This document shows, in pieces, positions 12,595 through 59,416 of a DNA stretch of 64,000 nt. The DNA comes from a virus. The stretch is from IMG/VR virus record IMGVR_UViG_3300036985_006248, positions 1 through 64,000 of that record; one strand, 5' to 3'. The position numbers were made by a program, and so were the translations under genes. Under the pieces are notes generated by a model, which saw only the letters and a list, made by a program, of their open reading frames with translations, had not been told where the DNA came from and did not search any database. Every line of letters begins with the position of its first letter. Within the stretch, counting starts at the first letter, position 1.

Positions 12595-13203
12595 CTAGCT
12601 TACTGCCGTGGCATAAACACCTGAAGATGAAGACCCGCTGACAAAATATCCACCATGATAGACGCCAACGGTTGTAGCGTCTGCAACATAAGTTCCCGAA
12701 GGATATAATATTAAAGAATAAGAAGTAGGTACTGAAGCAGTGTTTAAAAGGCTGAAGCCGTAAGTAGCACCACCTGCTGATGATAAACATATATATAATT
12801 GATGTGGTCCGGGGTTACTTACTAATAATCCTTTTCTTGTTGTACTATTAGCCGCTAAAGAGAATGTACCGCTGGCGGAACCGGTCCAGCTAAAAGAAGT
12901 TATTGGTAAAACTGTTGCAGTTGTAACTGCGGCATCGATTACAGTAATAGTTGAGGCTGTGTTGACTGTGATGGTGCCAGTGACATAAACCGGGTTGGCT
13001 AGAGAAGAAGTGACTGATAAAGAAGTGTTCCCCACTGTCACTGTTGAACTGGCTGTGTTGACTGTGACAGTACCAGTGACATAAACCGGGTTGGCTAGAG
13101 AAGAAGATATTTGATGAACTGGTATATAACCATAGCTGCTACTTTCAACGGCTAGCGATTGTGTACTACCGGCACCATCTTTAATGATTAAACTTTGTGT
13201 CAT
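12595..13203 (-). CDS. Structural protein with internal repeat
   Basis: 202 residues. Two near-identical segments (SSLANPVYVTGT-V/I-TVNTAS) occur at about residues 34-51 and 67-82 and reflect the 54-bp DNA repeat in 12957..13106. The pattern NPVYVTGTVTV is common in beta-structured phage virion proteins. The C-terminal 100 residues resemble a small jelly-roll (LVSNPGPHQLYICLS). Likely a decoration or fibre-tip protein. Confidence 0.65.
   Translation of the reverse strand: MTQSLIIKDGAGSTQSLAVESSSYGYIPVHQISSSLANPVYVTGTVTVNTASSTVTVGNTSLSVTSSLANPVYVTGTITVNTASTITVIDAAVTTATVLPITSFSWTGSASGTFSLAANSTTRKGLLVSNPGPHQLYICLSSAGGATYGFSLLNTASVPTSYSLILYPSGTYVADATTVGVYHGGYFVSGSSSSGVYATAVS
12957..13106 (-). 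repeat. 54-bp direct repeat, two copies in coding sequence
   Basis: Copies at 12957..13010 and 13053..13106 differ at 3 of 54 bases, with 42 bp between them. In-frame, they duplicate the NPVYVTGT unit. The near identity points to recent duplication or gene conversion. Confidence 0.85.
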
Positions 13204-49760: not shown

Positions 49761-51252
49761 TTAGTATTCCTTTACTTCCCAATTCTTATATTTTTTTCGT
49801 GTCTCCCAAGAGCCGTACTTCTCATGGAATTCAGTAAAGATTGTAACCCAAGACTTCTGGAATTGTTCAAAGCCAAAGTTCTTTTGAACATTGTCATATC
49901 CTTTACGACCAACAGCCTTACGTTCTGTTCTTGTCATATTATGTATCTTTTCAAGAGCAGCTATGAAATCTTCCTTTGAAATACGGTCTTCATAGATATA
50001 TGGTACTTCTTGTGAACCAATTATTGCTCGGCTAGCAGGCTCAATTAAGACACCATATGTATCAACCCCATCGGTTAGTTGGTCTTGCATACCGCCTGTC
50101 TTTGTGGCAATAACTGGCGTTCCGCAAGCTAGGCTCTCCAATACCGAGAGTCCGAAGCCTTCTGCATCGCTGATATTTATCGTGCAGTCAGCGGCGTTAT
50201 AAAATTTAGCCATTTCTGCTGCTGGTACTTTTCCTGCTGAAATAGCAAAGTTTTCTTTAGTTAAACCAAGTTCTTCCGCGATGGCAATTAGATCTTGACC
50301 ATTTTGATCTTTTGGGTCAGTATGCATTAGGAGAAGCGCCTTGTCATGTCCTACCTTGTCCAAGAATTCTTTATACCACCACATGACAGTTCCGCTCATC
50401 TTACGGCGTGCATTACGGTTTGTCCAAAAAAACATTGTTTTATCTTTTGGTTGTAAGTGCGTGAACTGACTTTCATCAAGAATCTTAAATAAGTCTGGGC
50501 TGACCGCGTGTGGAACATACTGTTCTTCGACTTCTGGGGCTACAGTTTGCACAATGTCGCTTGTAAGCTTTGAAATAGAACATATCTTATCATTTGAAAG
50601 ATAGAATTGACGATTGAACTTTGGATAAGGATAGTTATCCCATACGTGATAATATAGAATAGGAACATTAGGACGAATCTCTTGCTCCATCTGCCATAGC
50701 CAAGTATAAAAACGAGGATCTGTCATCATCCAGATGATATCGGGCTTCTCTTTCACCAATAGATTTCTGATTAGCTCCGGTGTACCATACCCATCAACTG
50801 GAATGATAATAAAGTCGTCACCATACTCTTGGAATTTAATTGGTCTGTAGTCTTGATGCTTAATAGCACCACCCAAAGAAATTATTTTAAAATTACCAGT
50901 TTTCATCAGGGCTTGAAAGATGTAGTTACACTGAGTACCTACGCCGCTCGGTGATACTTTGATGGACTATATCATCACTTTAAAAGTGTTGGGCGCTGTC
51001 GGATCATTGCCATACAATATTATTGTTTAGGCTAACCGTAGTCTCTGAACCTTCGCCATCTTTTCAGAACAGGCGCTAGGCTGCTGATTGTTCTTAACTA
51101 CTCTTTTTTAACATTCGCGTTTGTCGTTTCCAACTGCGCTGTAGTGAGTAGTTTTACAGAAGTTTCCAGCAATTCACCCAATTTTATATCCGCTATTACC
51201 GAGTGGTTAACGGATGGTCACCTAGAGTTAATATTTTTATCTTTTTCTTCAT
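49761..51252 (-). CDS. Glycosyltransferase (GT4-type) split by a group I intron
   Basis: Two exons: 51210..51252 (43 nt) and 49761..50956 (1196 nt), joining to 412 codons. Exon 1 starts with ATG 51252 behind AAGGAG at 51260..51265 and reads MKKKIKILTLGDHP, then splits a Leu codon. Exon 2 begins TATCACCGAGCGGCGTAGG, so the join reads GDHPLSPSGVGTQCNYIFQA, the expected N-terminal acceptor loop. The C-terminal domain has FFWTNRNARRKMSG, SDAEGFGLSVLESLACGTPV and a TGGMQDQL segment. Without splicing translation stops in the intron after 18 codons (HPLTTR then TAA). ATG 50906 is in-frame in exon 2 but has no Shine-Dalgarno and would lack the first 31 residues. Confidence 0.88.
50957..51209 (-). ncRNA. 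Group I intron, subgroup IA-like, without ORF (253 nt)
   Basis: Self-splicing ribozyme core is complete. P1: exon AUCCGU paired with intron GCGGAU, U:G at the 5' splice site. P3: UUGGGUG with CGCCCAA. P4: UGCUG with CAGCA. P5: AACUACUC with GAGUAGUU. P6: CGCC with GGCG. P7: GACUA with UAGUC. P8: CACUUU with AAAGUG. Conserved P (GAATTGCTGGAAAC), Q (AATCAGCAGCCTAGC), R (GGTTCAGAGACTA) and S (GATATAGTCC) elements are in order, and extra hairpins between P7 and P3 strands suggest IA. The last intron base is G (complement of 50957). The 3' end after P7 is short, so a P9 is not obvious. Confidence 0.93.
51202..51223 (-). repeat. Exon 1/intron junction copy of diverged repeat
   Basis: Minus-strand AGGTGACCATCCGTTAACCA plus two bases; 15 of 22 positions match 51456..51477 in the same codon phase (GDHPLTT against GLHPLTA). 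The two copies bracket the Vsr-like endonuclease remnant. Confidence 0.45.
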
Positions 51253-51460
51253 TTAACAGCTCCTTTAGTATCGCTTCTTTGTCTTGATTATAGTCGAATT
51301 CCCAAACTATTTTAATATGAAAATTCTGTGTTCTTAAAAAGTCTATTCTTTGCTTGTCTTGTTCCCAAACCTGTTTAGCTAATAATTTCTTCTTTTTATT
51401 GAGCGAATCTTCTTTATAAAATCTGGGATCTGCATGCCAATATGTACCATTAATCAGCGG
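51218..51460 (-). pseudogene. 5'-truncated Vsr-like (EDxHD/PD-(D/E)XK) homing endonuclease remnant
   Basis: 80 codons are open between an in-frame TAA at 51461 and TGA at 51218, without a start codon. The sequence runs INGTYWHADPRFYKED, then KQVWEQDKQRIDFLRTQNFH and IKIVWEFDYNQDKEAILKEL: this is the C-terminal half of the Vsr-like homing endonuclease fold, with the YWHADP motif and the terminal WEFD strand. The N-terminal half is absent. It overlaps exon 1 of the adjacent glycosyltransferase by 35 nt. Confidence 0.75.
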
Positions 51461-51478: not shown

Positions 51479-52468
51479 CTATCTGACATTTAAAGTTTCC
51501 TTTTGTAAATCCGAGTTATACATTATGGTTGCTAATTCTTTGGCGTCTATCTTTGCTTCCCAGCCTAAGATTCGCTTTGCCTTAGAAGCATCAGCTAATA
51601 GTAATGGCACGTCACTGGGGCGTTTAAAGCTGTCATCAATGACAACGTGCTGGAATAGATCAAACCCGGCTGCTTCAGAAACAAATGTAATAAAATCTCT
51701 TATTGTATTTGTCTTACCAGTTCCTAAAACATAATCATCGGGTATTCTATGTTGCATCATCATCCACATTCCTTCGACGTATTCTTTCGCATATCCCCAA
51801 TCCCGGCATGCATCTAGGTTTCCAAGACGCAATTCTTTTTCAAGTCCTAACTTAATTCTTGCAGCAGTTTTGGTAATCTTTCTAGTAACAAATTGCTCTC
51901 CTCTTCTCGGAGATTCGTGATTAAAGAGAATACCAGAACATAGAAAGAGATTATAAGCTTTACGATAGTTTATTACCAAGTTGTGTGCAGCTACTTTGGC
52001 GCACCCATAAGGCGAAACAGGAGAGAGAATCGTTTGTTCGTTTTGTGGTGCGTTACCATTATCTCCGAACATTTCACTAGTAGATGCTTGATAAAACTTT
52101 GTTTCTGGAGACAGGTTTCTAATCGCTTCTAAGCAATTCAAAACTCCAGCAGCGTTTATTTCCAGCGTGCTTTCTGGAGTGGTAAAAGAAGCTCCAACGT
52201 GGCTTTGTGCTCCGAGGTTATAGAATTCATCGGGCTTGTGCGTCTTTACAAGTCTCCATATAGAGGATGCATCTGTCAAATCTGCATTTTCTAAAACTAG
52301 ATTTTTGTTGGTTAGTAAGTGTTCAATGTTGAAATACTTCTTATCTTCCATCGAACTTCGTCTTACCATACCTATAACTTTATAGCCTTTTTCTAATAGA
52401 AATTCAGCAAGAAAACTTCCATCCTGCCCCGTAATTCCCGATATGATACTATTTTTTTGCTTAACCAT
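51479..52468 (-). CDS. gmd: GDP-mannose 4,6-dehydratase
   Basis: 329 residues, a short-chain dehydrogenase with the NADP loop GITGQDGSFL at 11-20, catalytic Y154-x3-K158 (SPYGCAK) and the TSEMFG segment with T130/S131/E132; RPSDVPLL and an ILGW end are also gmd-typical. It converts GDP-D-mannose to GDP-4-keto-6-deoxy-D-mannose, precursor of fucose, rhamnose, perosamine and branched sugars. Length and end are near normal. Its 5' end is new: a diverged remnant of an older gmd start lies at 52740..52811, with a homing endonuclease fragment between. Shine-Dalgarno before 52468 is weak (AGAAAGAG). Confidence 0.93.
   Translation of the reverse strand: MVKQKNSIISGITGQDGSFLAEFLLEKGYKVIGMVRRSSMEDKKYFNIEHLLTNKNLVLENADLTDASSIWRLVKTHKPDEFYNLGAQSHVGASFTTPESTLEINAAGVLNCLEAIRNLSPETKFYQASTSEMFGDNGNAPQNEQTILSPVSPYGCAKVAAHNLVINYRKAYNLFLCSGILFNHESPRRGEQFVTRKITKTAARIKLGLEKELRLGNLDACRDWGYAKEYVEGMWMMMQHRIPDDYVLGTGKTNTIRDFITFVSEAAGFDLFQHVVIDDSFKRPSDVPLLLADASKAKRILGWEAKIDAKELATIMYNSDLQKETLNVR
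52422..52446 (-). repeat. 25-bp direct repeat, copy in intact gmd
   Basis: Matches 52774..52798 at 24 of 25 bases; encodes ISGITGQD in gmd. Partner copy lies 352 bp upstream across the endonuclease fragment. Confidence 0.85.
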
Positions 52469-52515: not shown

Positions 52516-52725
52516 TTAAAATTTGTTTTTGCCTGTATTTCTTTCACTTAAATTTTGTTTGAATTCTTCAGAACGTTTTCTTCCTTTGTTATTAATACCA
52601 GTATAGGAGGACGAACAAGCCTGATTACAGAATCTTTTTGCAAAATCGCGCTTATTTGTTTGTTTGACAGTAAAATCTTTGTTACAGAATTCACATATTT
52701 TTGTAGAATAAATGGCTTTTCTCAT
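52516..52725 (-). pseudogene. Zinc-finger/NUMOD3 fragment of an HNH-type homing endonuclease
   Basis: 69 codons: ICEFCNKDFTVKQ and RFCNQACSSSY form a Cys4 finger, followed by a NUMOD3-like GRKRSEEFKQNLSERNTGKN. In homing endonucleases this finger-plus-NUMOD3 end precedes an HNH or other nuclease domain. No nuclease domain follows before the stop; so it is a truncated remnant or a stand-alone DNA-binding fragment. Confidence 0.65.
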
Positions 52726-52739
52726 TTTATTTTCTTATA

Positions 52740-52811
52740 TTATATCGATAATAAATGTAGTGACCGTCCAGTTTCCTGCCCCGTAATTCCTGATATGACG
52801 GCTGTCTTCAT
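52740..52811 (-). pseudogene. 5' remnant of an older gmd copy
   Basis: ATG at 52811 overlaps the nuclease stop as ATGA and is preceded by AAGG at suitable spacing, so it has the normal operon signals. It reads MKTAVISGITGQ, identical in function to gmd residues 7-15, then diverges (ETGRSLHLLSI) to a TAA at 52740. This is what remains of the original gmd start. Confidence 0.7.
52774..52798 (-). repeat. 25-bp direct repeat, copy in gmd remnant
   Basis: Partner of 52422..52446; one mismatch in 25 (C/T). Confidence 0.85.
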
Positions 52812-54297: not shown

Positions 54298-54546
54298 TTA
54301 TTTTTTTGTTTGTGGAGAAGATTCTAAATCTGTTACTGCTTGTTGATACCCACGCATAAAATTCTCTTCTGCAATTAACATAAGAAATTCTGGGAATTCT
54401 TTTAACATCTGTTCCACAATCAGAAGCACAGTTACATTACCATCTTTTGGTTGTCGGGTTTCCCCAACATAATTAACTAACCATTCCTTCATCGGGTTAT
54501 CTTTAGATACTACTTCTGATTGTGGACTTTCCATTTTTGTCATCAT
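54298..54546 (-). CDS. Small hypothetical protein
   Basis: 82 residues, MMTKMESPQSEVVSKDNPMK start, then a probable helix EWLVNYVGETRQPK and a segment NVTVLLIVEQMLKEFPEFLM. Its start overlaps the PhoH stop (ATGATG) and its stop lies 2 nt from the peptidase start. Function unknown. Confidence 0.6.
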   Translation of the reverse strand: MMTKMESPQSEVVSKDNPMKEWLVNYVGETRQPKDGNVTVLLIVEQMLKEFPEFLMLIAEENFMRGYQQAVTDLESSPQTKK

Positions 54547-57083
54547 TATAAAATATCGGCTGCTAATGTAGCGACAGAACTTCTTTCGCCGCGTTTTAAT
54601 GCCACATGCCCCACCAATTCATAAGGTTTCATTTTTTCTATCACGTATGTCAGCCCGTTGGTAGTTGCATCAACATATTGATTATCGATCTGATAAATAT
54701 CCCCCGTTAGTACAATCTTCGTTCCTTCACCAACGCGAGTGATTATAGTCTTTAATTCATGAGAGGTTAAATTTTGTGATTCGTCAATGATAATATATGC
54801 GTTTGAAATTGAACGACCGCGAATATAGGTTAATGCTTCCATTTCGATTGTGCCAGCTTCCATCATCATTCTCATGTGCTCTTTATTACTTCCTAACAGG
54901 AATTCCAAGTTATCTTGCACGGGAGCTAACCACGGAGTCATCTTTTCTTCTAGGGTATTGTGAGTTACGATAAAATCATTGGTTACGTAAAGATGTTCTT
55001 TATTTTCCACAAGAATACATTGTGCTTCTTTTTTTCCAACAAGCTCAATGCTTTTGATACCAACTCCTTGAATATACTTTGTAGAATGTCGTGAAGCTTT
55101 TCTTGAAATGTAGAAAGGATTAATATTTTGTGGTAATGAGACAGTAAACTCATATGATATTCTACGAGAATTTATCTCTCTTCCATCGATATATGACTTC
55201 TTTCCAACTCTATTTCTTTCTTTAATGACAGCTCTTCCACCGAGCGAACGAACCAACTCTTGCATATCTTTAGCGAGTTGCAAAGAGGTTGTAGTAAAAG
55301 ATGATTCTCCGTTTGTTTTTACGGTACCATCTGTATCCATCAATCCTTTTAATAAATTAATTCGGTCTTGCACGCACGAAAACTTATAGATCTCTGGGAT
55401 AAATTTTTCCCACGCTTTTTTATTAGATAAATGTAAGTTATCAAGTATATTTTTTATAGGATTTTGCCAACGGTTTGAACGTTCGGTAAACTCATATTTG
55501 ATTCCATCAATTATTGTGTTGTTATCGCAGCGAGATTGCAGGGTACTTCTGTTAATATTTAATACTTCTAAAGATTTTCCAATACTAGGAAAAGTTGTTT
55601 TTTCTAATGTTTTAACATTAGTTATAGTAACTTGTCTAGCGGGCTTATTATTGTAGAGATCAGTTCTAATGTTGTAAGTAATTGTCTTTCCATCGTTTGT
55701 TAATCTACAGCCTAATGATTTAATTTCATTTTCTACTCTTTTTATCAGTTCATGGTCGGTATTACAAACACTTATATTATTTTTAATACACCCGTCACCC
55801 AATAATACTCCAAGAGTGTATGCAGGAAGAGGCAATTCTTTATCGGTATACTGTACTGGCGAAACTCTAGGTAAAAAGTGATTTAATTTGCCGTTGGTGG
55901 TTTTAAAAGTATCGATAATCTGTTTAGTTGTTCTAACTTGACCATGCTTATTACGCTTTTTTTCTTCAAATGTCCTAGTTAACCACAAGTGGTCTTCACA
56001 ACATTCCGTAGAAGAATCATCGGTAGTTGTAACTTTATAAATTAGTTTCTTCCCCTTCGGAAACACACCTAAAACTCTAGTTGGACTGCCGTCTCGCCCA
56101 ATGACATTATCTCCAACTTTGATAGAGCCCATTTCAACCCAACCAGTAGGAGTAGCCAATTTTGCATCCAGTGGTTGTGGTCCCGGAAGGAAACCGATGT
56201 CTTTTCCCATTGGCTGCACTGGACGGGAGACAATAAGTTTTGTATATATCTTATCTTCAAGGATTTGTTGTAGCCCAGCCGCCAGAGCAATCAAAGTCTT
56301 GCCGCTACCAGCCTTGCCGATAAGAGAAACAATCTTCACTTCTGGATCCATTAGTGAATCAAGAGCAAATTGTTGCTCTTTGTTCTTAGCGTGAACTCCA
56401 AATATGCCACCCTTGAACTCCTTTACTTTAACTAATGATTGGCTGTAGGACTTGAATCTAGCTAAGGCAGACTTTTTCTCATTGGTGTTAGAAACCAACA
56501 TAACATATTCGTTAGCAAAAAGATTAATCTCTTTTTCGAGCAAATAAATCTTATCATTTTTGTGGAATCGATCAATGACAGCATCATCGACTACATGTTG
56601 TTTATAACCAATAAAGACTTCTTCGGCTCGTTCTACTACTTGGTTTGGAACATAGTCTTCAGTTAGGATGCCCAGTGAGTCGCATTTAACTCTCATGTTA
56701 ATATCTTGGGATACTAACACGACGTTCTTATTATCCCCGAGTTTACGTATGAGCGTTAAAGTTGAGGCTATGATTTGATTATCCGGGACGCTCTTTTCAA
56801 AACTGTCTGGTAGTAAAGATAAATCGCAGGGAAGTACCGAGACGCTACCCTTGCCCTTACCAAGCTTAATCTCGTCTTGTAGACTGCCTTTTTCTCGTAA
56901 TCCATCAAGAGTACGAATAAATTGTCTTGCATTAACACCAACACCGTCTTGACGCTTTTTGTGCTTATCAACTTCTTCCAACACCTTAAGAGGAATCCCA
57001 ACATCGTTGTTCTTATAGGCAAAGATAGCATCACAATCGCTTAAATAAACGTTTGTGTCCAAGACATAGTATTTTTTAGACAT
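54546..57083 (-). CDS. PhoH-like protein (PIN + PhoH ATPase) carrying an intein
   Basis: 845-residue precursor. Residues 1-150 are a PIN-like domain (DTNVYLSDCD at 9-18, VLVSQDINMRVKC near 122). Residues 235-301 and 710-845 make up a PhoH ATPase: Walker A GKAGSGKT at 256-263, YIIIDESQN with D767/E768 as Walker B, and VLTGDIYQID near the end. Between LPG301 and T710 is a 408-residue intein; removal gives a normal 437-residue PIN-PhoH protein, a form seen in bacteria and phages with proposed RNA-unwinding or ribonuclease roles. Gene preceded by the CTATTTATA motif. Confidence 0.9.
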   Translation of the reverse strand: MSKKYYVLDTNVYLSDCDAIFAYKNNDVGIPLKVLEEVDKHKKRQDGVGVNARQFIRTLDGLREKGSLQDEIKLGKGKGSVSVLPCDLSLLPDSFEKSVPDNQIIASTLTLIRKLGDNKNVVLVSQDINMRVKCDSLGILTEDYVPNQVVERAEEVFIGYKQHVVDDAVIDRFHKNDKIYLLEKEINLFANEYVMLVSNTNEKKSALARFKSYSQSLVKVKEFKGGIFGVHAKNKEQQFALDSLMDPEVKIVSLIGKAGSGKTLIALAAGLQQILEDKIYTKLIVSRPVQPMGKDIGFLPGPQPLDAKLATPTGWVEMGSIKVGDNVIGRDGSPTRVLGVFPKGKKLIYKVTTTDDSSTECCEDHLWLTRTFEEKKRNKHGQVRTTKQIIDTFKTTNGKLNHFLPRVSPVQYTDKELPLPAYTLGVLLGDGCIKNNISVCNTDHELIKRVENEIKSLGCRLTNDGKTITYNIRTDLYNNKPARQVTITNVKTLEKTTFPSIGKSLEVLNINRSTLQSRCDNNTIIDGIKYEFTERSNRWQNPIKNILDNLHLSNKKAWEKFIPEIYKFSCVQDRINLLKGLMDTDGTVKTNGESSFTTTSLQLAKDMQELVRSLGGRAVIKERNRVGKKSYIDGREINSRRISYEFTVSLPQNINPFYISRKASRHSTKYIQGVGIKSIELVGKKEAQCILVENKEHLYVTNDFIVTHNTLEEKMTPWLAPVQDNLEFLLGSNKEHMRMMMEAGTIEMEALTYIRGRSISNAYIIIDESQNLTSHELKTIITRVGEGTKIVLTGDIYQIDNQYVDATTNGLTYVIEKMKPYELVGHVALKRGERSSVATLAADIL
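54957..56180 (-). mobile_element. Intein with LAGLIDADG endonuclease, apparent class 3
   Basis: 408 residues beginning PQPLDAKLATPTGW with no Cys, Ser or Ala at position 1, followed by +1 Thr. The class 3 hallmarks are present: W66 in block B (ECCEDHLWLT), C388 in block F (EAQCILVENKEHLYVTNDF) and T406 of the VTHN end. LAGLIDADG motifs lie at about 121-130 (YTLGVLLGDG) and 274-285 (INLLKGLMDTDG). Residues about 182-231 look like a NUMOD1 DNA-binding insertion (FPSIGKSLEVLNINRSTLQS). Site is between Walker A and Walker B of PhoH. Confidence 0.85.
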
Positions 57084-59345: not shown

Positions 59346-59416
59346 TGGACCGACAGGGAATCGAACCCTGAATCACGCCTTGCAAAGGCGTTGTTATACC
59401 GTTTAACTATCAGCCC
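59346..59416 (-). tRNA. tRNA-Ala (anticodon UGC)
   Basis: 71-nt cloverleaf: acceptor GGGCUGA with UCGGUCC, D arm, 5-bp anticodon stem ACGCC/GGCGU with loop UUUGCAA (anticodon UGC), T arm CAGGG-TTCGATT-CCCTG, discriminator A. G3:U70, the main alanine identity element, is present. No CCA encoded. Only one tRNA gene is seen in the window. Confidence 0.95.

Follow-up and report, generated by a model that had tools for sequence, protein, structure and literature searches.

The locus described here raises the question of how a phage glycosyltransferase (GT) gene came to be divided by a group I intron within its first codons, and by what means the intron reached that site. The gene lies in a 64,000-nucleotide stretch of viral DNA (hereafter the window, meaning that whole stretch), which corresponds to positions 1 to 64,000 of the 174,280-base IMG/VR record IMGVR_UViG_3300036985_006248. 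Sequence comparisons support the presence of the intron, and it is quite likely that the site represents a collaborative-homing locus, in which an intron without an open reading frame (ORF) spread together with a free-standing endonuclease that has since decayed in the window phage. The split gene consists of the following parts:

51265 to 51260, minus strand: Shine-Dalgarno sequence AAGGAG of the spliced gene, before the ATG at 51252 and within the endonuclease remnant described below
51252 to 51210, minus strand: exon 1 of the GT gene, 43 nt, encoding MKKKIKILTLGDHP plus the first base of a Leu codon, which fits the N termini of intronless homologues
51209 to 50957, minus strand: group I intron, 253 nt, with terminal G50957 (Rfam RF00028)
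50956 to 49761, minus strand: exon 2 of the GT gene, glycosyl transferases group 1 (PF00534, E value 2.3e-16; phrog_2170, E value 5.9e-27)

An initial annotation, made from the sequence without database searches, had proposed the AAGGAG, the 43-nt exon, and a junction between T51210 and T50956, and each of these statements was borne out. Joining the two bases restores MKKKIKILTLGDHP-L-SPSGVGTQ; the predicted product of the joined exons begins MKKKIKILTLGDHP-L-SPSGVGTQCNYIFQALMKTG... and reads ...GDHP-L-SPSGVGTQCNYIF... around the junction. The gene is split after codon 14 plus one base, and an in-frame stop lies three codons into the intron should the RNA remain unspliced. Homologues were collected with a search seeded with exon 2 (22 viral contigs) and an alignment-seeded GT search (at least 574 contigs, of which the best 80 were taken), which pooled to 92 distinct contigs; as this set was ranked by similarity, it is no random sample of a widespread gene. 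An open frame crosses the intron site in 91 of the 92 (e.g., MSDKKIKVLTLSDHPLSPSGVGTQ), and the N termini of these intronless homologues agree with the protein from exon 1 plus exon 2. The sole interrupted contig, L021, carries an intron at the site. The N terminus was likewise uninterrupted in two phage isolates whose homologues are distant (about 32 to 35% identity), although in one of them, Mel-JY01, the GT is annotated as two ORFs with the break further in than the N terminus. The host gene contains both the Glycos_transf_1 domain and a conserved N-terminal loop, and presumably belongs to the GT4 type; its SGV motif, invariant in 21 aligned homologues, reaches its N terminus only via splicing. 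These comparisons support the identification of the host gene as a phage GT interrupted by a group I intron.

Searches seeded with the homing endonuclease gene (HEG) found beside the intron, together with intron-pattern searches, added nine GT contigs (L024 to L028, L056, L222, L140, and L141), bringing the records examined for the intron to 102 (101 contigs and the window). Nine alleles carried an intron at the GT site: the window, L021, L024 to L028, L056, and L222. In all nine the insertion point lies one base into the Leu codon of D-H-P-L-[SC]-x-S-G-V-G (by eye for L222). The L024 contig ends soon after the intron, and L026 to L028 are near copies of one another. Intron identity ranged from 69 to 76% among the window, L056, L021, and the L024 to L028 group.

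A covariance-model check of the proposed 253-nt intron returned a match to RF00028 at 51248 to 50947 on the minus strand (58.6 bits against a gathering threshold of 50; E value, 2.6e-12 in the 64-kb window; model positions 1 to 253), the only one at an E value of ≤0.001 across the 174,280-base record. No ORF of ≥60 amino acids within the intron appeared in the ORF list of the window. Five predicted structural elements were placed on the minus strand:

51210 to 51215, minus strand: exon side of P1, AUCCGU, partner 51188 to 51193, with a U.G pair at the splice site
51188 to 51193, minus strand: internal guide side of P1, GCGGAU, with a compensatory A-U in L222
51194 to 51200, minus strand: P10 guide segment GGUAAUA, pairing at 6 of 7 positions with the 7 nt that open exon 2 (50956 to 50950)
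51175 to 51181, minus strand: 5′ strand of P3, partner 50989 to 50995, two pairs with compensatory change
51039 to 51043, minus strand: 5′ strand of P7, partner 50965 to 50969, invariant in eight sequences

Eight introns were aligned for RNA structure (L026 was omitted, being a copy of L027 in the intron stretch). The initial outline of P1 with a U:G pair at the splice site, followed by P3 to P8, held across this alignment: the six pairs of P1 (AUCCGU/GCGGAU in the window) ended in U.G in all eight, and P3, P4, P5, P6, P7, P7.x, and P8 could be drawn in each. Compensatory changes were found in P1, P3, P5, P6, and P7.x, as in the P1 of L222 (AUCCAU/GUGGAU), where G-C has become A-U. With P8 excluded, 43 pairs were counted, and 99.4% of the 344 cells held standard pairs, the only two failures both being in P5. 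Changes on both sides were seen in 14 of the 43 pairs, and none of 500 shuffles reached the observed pairing, both-sided count, or covariation score, although in further pair types 21 of the 500 scored as high. Shifting the partner columns by 1 to 3 reduced pairing to 25 to 45%. P4 and P7 are invariant in the eight introns and are therefore uninformative for covariation. On fixed columns P8 was only 59.5% paired because the length of this helix varies, and its hairpin was visible in all eight introns when each was folded singly. RNAalifold, run on a seven-intron alignment, missed P7 and P8, and the named structure was counted instead. Extra helices between P7 and P3 (P7.1 and P7.2) are the rule for subgroup IA; the two helices drawn between P7 and P3 here (P7.x) covary. 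P10 was scored in six alleles, L222 not among them: the window guide formed 6 of 7 pairs with its own exon 2 and no more than 4 with any of the other five exons, and that of L056 formed five consecutive pairs with its own exon against one. Together, these data support the 253-nt element as a group I intron with the splice sites given above, and we infer strongly that its RNA self-splices, restoring the enzyme.

The sequence upstream of exon 1 bears on how the intron may have moved:

51248 to 51451, minus strand: C-terminal remnant of a Vsr/EDxHD-type homing endonuclease, 68 codons, NGTYWHADPRFY...LLNE, in a frame open from 51460 to 51218
51480 to 51489, minus strand: ATGTCAGATA, the left end of the start that the GT gene originally had, with the insertion following it; it overlaps the stop of the GDP-mannose dehydratase, an arrangement shared with intronless relatives (e.g., L002)
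51479 to 52468, minus strand: GDP-mannose 4,6-dehydratase, the upstream neighbor (PF16363; E value, 1.2e-116)

The endonuclease remnant, which occupies part of the 230 bases before exon 1, had been overlooked initially, and it probably makes of what seemed a lone intron one half of a homing pair. The left edge of the insertion sits inside the original GT start, ATGTCAGATA. The remnant matched phrog_22677 (E value, 1.5e-9) and the family profile, and was 54 to 59% identical to the C termini of HEGs in L024 to L028; beyond these 68 codons, no other Vsr-type match was present in the 174-kb record. Long members of the family, in L024 to L028, have ∼290 residues. Their genes immediately precede GT exon 1 and run into the GT start, and a GGAG before that start lies inside the HEG. 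The window copy begins at NGTYWHAD, so that the preceding ∼220 residues of the long copies are gone, including VDIYI and IIEF, which we take to be catalytic, and its catalytic domain is incomplete. The family profile (19 rows, three of them HNH-type) matched I-Bth0305I (3r3p; E value, 5.3e-8) and Vsr (1cw0; E value, 3.8e-4), as well as 1vsr. Pfam searches of the endonucleases gave sub-threshold matches only, with PF18741 below its cut-off. An AlphaFold model of a long relative (predicted local distance difference test score [pLDDT], 75; predicted template modeling score [pTM], 0.42) had 1vsr as its best Foldseek match (probability, 1.00; E value, 1.9e-3). By profile and model, then, the long relatives appear to carry a Vsr-like catalytic domain. 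Remnants in L222 and L056 matched the profile with E values of 6.6e-19 and 1.1e-10, respectively, in a search limited to these stretches; that of L056, spotted by eye but missed at an E value of 1e-4 and by Pfam, was confirmed by the focused search. Between the GT start scar and the window remnant, ∼27 bases (51478 to 51452, minus strand) hold a small GGGT..ACCC inverted repeat with no recognized match. A NUMOD3 fragment at 52516 to 52725 was considered as the lost N terminus of the Vsr remnant and was rejected, as it matched none of the other loci compared.

In each of the nine intron alleles, exon 1 is immediately preceded by an HEG or its remnant. Long Vsr-type genes were present in L024 to L028 and remnants only in the window, L056, and L222, while L021 carried an HNH-like gene truncated where the contig begins; a free-standing endonuclease gene beside the host gene was thus found with an ORF-less intron in L024 to L028 and L021. 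Among GT-intron contigs retrieved through intron DNA patterns, 8 of 8 had an HEG or its remnant as the upstream neighbor; among the 91 intronless contigs of the GT-seeded set, 1 did (L003, HNH-like). No Vsr piece came up when ∼500 bases before the site were scanned with a sensitive profile at 99 loci covering the 91 intronless contigs. Three intronless alleles (L003, L140, and L141) encode a protein of 212 to 214 residues at the HEG spot and gave no RF00028 match. The first ∼90 residues of this protein are 57 to 86% identical to those of the Vsr-type proteins and the remainder is HNH-like. The L140 protein matched phrog_1035 (endonuclease VII; E value, 1.1e-8) and phrog_1271, and L003 and L021 were labeled HNH-like by similarity to it, the L003 endonuclease having no named endonuclease match of its own. 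Part of the label is the motif WHIDHIIP...NLRPL, which we take as an HNH signature. A structure model of the HNH-type protein (pLDDT, 70; pTM, 0.46) had no significant structural match, phmmer found none, and a search for an HNH-type enzyme elsewhere in the window's own record, run without a positive control, gave no match. The intron was present in 8 of 8 records with a Vsr-type gene (long or remnant) and in 1 of 4 with an HNH-like gene (Fisher P = 0.018, uncorrected for relatedness).

L025 and L141 are close relatives. They are 80 to 98% identical per 50 nt from upstream through approximately HEG codon 87, and again 84 to 92% identical in GT exon 2, but are unlike from that codon through the intron save for exon 1 (79%). 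What differs is therefore a Vsr domain, exon 1, and intron in one against an HNH-like domain and exon 1 in the other. In a GT tree of 44 rows (L024 and L056, both partial, the copy L026, and the later-found L222 were omitted), L025 paired with L141 (99/90 support) and the window with the empty L002 (99/93). Intron carriers are scattered on this sequence-based tree and form no clade.

Under the preferred reading of a collaborative-homing locus, free-standing endonucleases that have an N-terminal zinc-finger-like domain in common would recognize the conserved 5′ end of the GT gene, and the Vsr-type enzyme would cut alleles lacking the intron, at the intron site or close to it, with the intron blocking cutting of its own gene. 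Break repair would then copy the endonuclease, exon 1, and intron jointly into an empty allele, and once fixed the endonuclease would decay, leaving in the window its 68 C-terminal codons. These may have been kept because the ribosome-binding site and the start of the GT gene lie within them. The endonuclease beside the intron probably helped the intron to spread.

Related introns elsewhere introduce the strongest competing account. A 25-base intron pattern retrieved 77 stretches, eight of which were GT alleles (seven plus L222), and by BLAST the closest non-GT introns were those of L170, L214, and L215. In L214 a Vsr-type HEG follows the intron core and precedes uvsX-type sequence; RF00028 scored below threshold there, and the intron was placed by BLAST only. 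In L051, found through its HEG, a Vsr-type HEG lies inside an RF00028 span (1454 to 2523), also before uvsX-type sequence. Related introns and this nuclease class thus seem to be nested in one gene and adjacent in a different one. At both loci (L051, 1106 to 2523; L214, 1707 to 3203), each a uvsX-type recombinase gene, a Hint-like ORF (intein-like, as judged by eye) sits shortly before the intron and Vsr-type HEG. The intron may accordingly have lost an internal endonuclease, with a free-standing one settling beside it later and no coadapted pair involved, an alternative raised for collaborative loci in the part of PMC10448857 available and one with which the HNH-like gene beside the same intron in L021 would agree. 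We regard this turnover as possible but on the unlikely side, since in L003, L140, and L141 the spot holds a free-standing HEG with no intron present, and the N-terminal HEG domain and flanks are shared by L025 and L141, which indicates that the HEG position needs no prior intron.

A second alternative, rated lower still, is that intron and endonuclease are neighbors by coincidence, the 5′ end of the GT operon being an HEG hot spot, with general recombination alone carrying the intron along. A NUMOD3-like fragment at the dehydratase and a LAGLIDADG intein in a PhoH-like gene, both within 6 kb, fit such a hot spot, as do HNH-like HEGs at the site without an intron. The unequal association of the intron with Vsr-type and HNH-like genes (8 of 8 against 1 of 4, at the P value and with the limit given above) and the L025/L141 exchange tract, which stops where the intron stops, make it improbable.

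Decay of the intron itself, with splicing lost and the GT gene dead in the window phage, appears very unlikely. The neighboring HEG has decayed, and the single-sequence folding energy is modest (z score, −2.17, with 5 of 200 shuffles at least as stable and P7 not recovered in the fold). Folding energy is a weak witness, however, and it is the covariance model, covariation, and comparison that support the intron. Against decay stand the near-complete pairing (2 unpaired cells of 344, both in P5), the two open exon frames, the P10 match of the window guide to its own exon 2 over those of the other five alleles, and the exon 2 protein, still 83% identical to that of the nearest empty relative. 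The remaining possibility, that there is no intron and the gene starts at the internal ATG 50906, has next to nothing to recommend it beyond the mechanical ORF found there, since this ATG has no visible Shine-Dalgarno sequence (as noted initially), such a start would drop the invariant SGV motif, an RF00028 match lies upstream, and the frames of the 91 uninterrupted contigs, far from beginning at that position, extend ∼30 codons or more upstream of it.

Several observations weigh against the homing account itself. All Foldseek E values fell short of 0.001. As L026 to L028 are nearly identical, fewer than five independent events underlie the long Vsr copies, and unrelated HEG families beside intronless GT genes would escape detection. 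With four contigs carrying an HNH-like gene and only one of these an intron, not every HEG needs the intron. On the GT tree the five intron and three HNH-only rows required three label changes, no fewer than when shuffled; bootstrap support was unsettled, and L021 formed a long branch. P10 was not allele specific in four of the six alleles, the guides of L021, L024, and L027 pairing equally with several exons and that of L025 no better with its own. Finally, as the window HEG is truncated and the record holds no other Vsr-type copy, the intron may no longer be mobile.

A more specific version of the homing account can be offered tentatively, with a lower likelihood than the account as a whole. 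The locus may be a modular cassette in which one DNA recognition domain targets the 5′ end of the GT gene, while the nuclease domain (HNH or Vsr) and intron are swapped as one tract; the intron would confer immunity specifically to the Vsr-type and not the HNH-type enzyme. The HEG C terminus would double as the GT translation start, which is why remnants would outlive the dead enzyme. If true, the locus displays a full cycle, from empty through HEG only and HEG plus intron to intron plus dead HEG. Alleles of every expected stage occur in related phages, and L025 and L141 differ mainly by nuclease domain and intron; this natural allelic series allows a direct test of the sequence of events and of protection by the intron.

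Other insertions were seen nearby or on related contigs. A separate group I intron (L050; G015, 1556 to 1754; 62.5 bits) lies outside the GT gene on the contig of L015, and a second group I match (L052; G023, 12832 to 13036; 51.8 bits) lies ∼5 kb upstream of the GT intron on the L024 contig. In the window, 52516 to 52811 (minus strand) has the appearance of a second endonuclease scar: the apparent original 5′ end of the dehydratase gene (52811 to 52774, MKTAVISGITGQ) is cut off and followed by a NUMOD3/zinc-finger fragment (52725 to 52516, minus strand) and then by a complete dehydratase gene whose start, at 52468, is new. The PhoH-like gene (54546 to 57083, minus strand) carries an in-frame intein with a LAGLIDADG_3 match and encodes 845 amino acids, compared with about 437 in L001 and L003. 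The intein appears to begin with Pro (GFLPG|PQPLDAK) and to end at HN|T, ends that we presume would fit the class 3 type. The sole tRNA found in the window was tRNA-Ala(TGC) (59346 to 59416, minus strand).

Host genes of phage group I introns, in the portions of the reports available, are those for DNA metabolism, terminase, lysis, capsid, and tail (PMC3984707, PMC3706429, PMC11878797), which is consistent with the initial view of a GT as an unusual host. No GT-hosted phage group I intron was present among the matches listed in the open-access literature, assessed mostly by title and abstract, with subscription journals and supplements lying outside. The locus would add a carbohydrate-active enzyme to these host genes, and it illustrates how gene calling by ORFs only loses the true start of the GT enzyme.

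The closest parallels are to systems in which intron and endonuclease are separate, a kind of locus whose origin is called unclear in the available text of PMC10448857. According to the accessible part of PMC6083498, the psbA intron of S-PM2 with F-CphI likewise combines a phage group I intron with an adjacent free-standing endonuclease gene, and there too cutting of the intron-bearing allele should be prevented by the intron itself. F-CphI differs in having an Endo VII motif and a demonstrated cleavage specificity, whereas the enzyme at the GT locus is of the Vsr/EDxHD type (HNH-like in relatives), its cleavage is inferred, and it lies 5′ of a very short exon 1, decayed in the window. The terminase intron of ICP1 with its adjacent T5orf172 HEG, and the T3/T7-like cases, share a short first exon without a function in annotation; host gene and nuclease family are different, and the sections of PMC10448857 available describe no HEG-only allelic series. 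I-Bth0305I (EDxHD; 3r3p) has the same nuclease fold as the GT-locus relatives by profile and structure search, but is labeled a mobile intron protein, whereas these relatives are free-standing beside the host gene. In T4, the nrdB intron is also paired with a free-standing endonuclease, mobE, which mobilizes an intron whose own endonuclease is defunct (PMC2988022, as far as available); in the window it is the free-standing enzyme itself that is defunct, and the intron is ORF-less. As far as this partly accessible literature shows, the kind of system is already known, and what is new at the GT locus is the host gene and the nuclease pairing.
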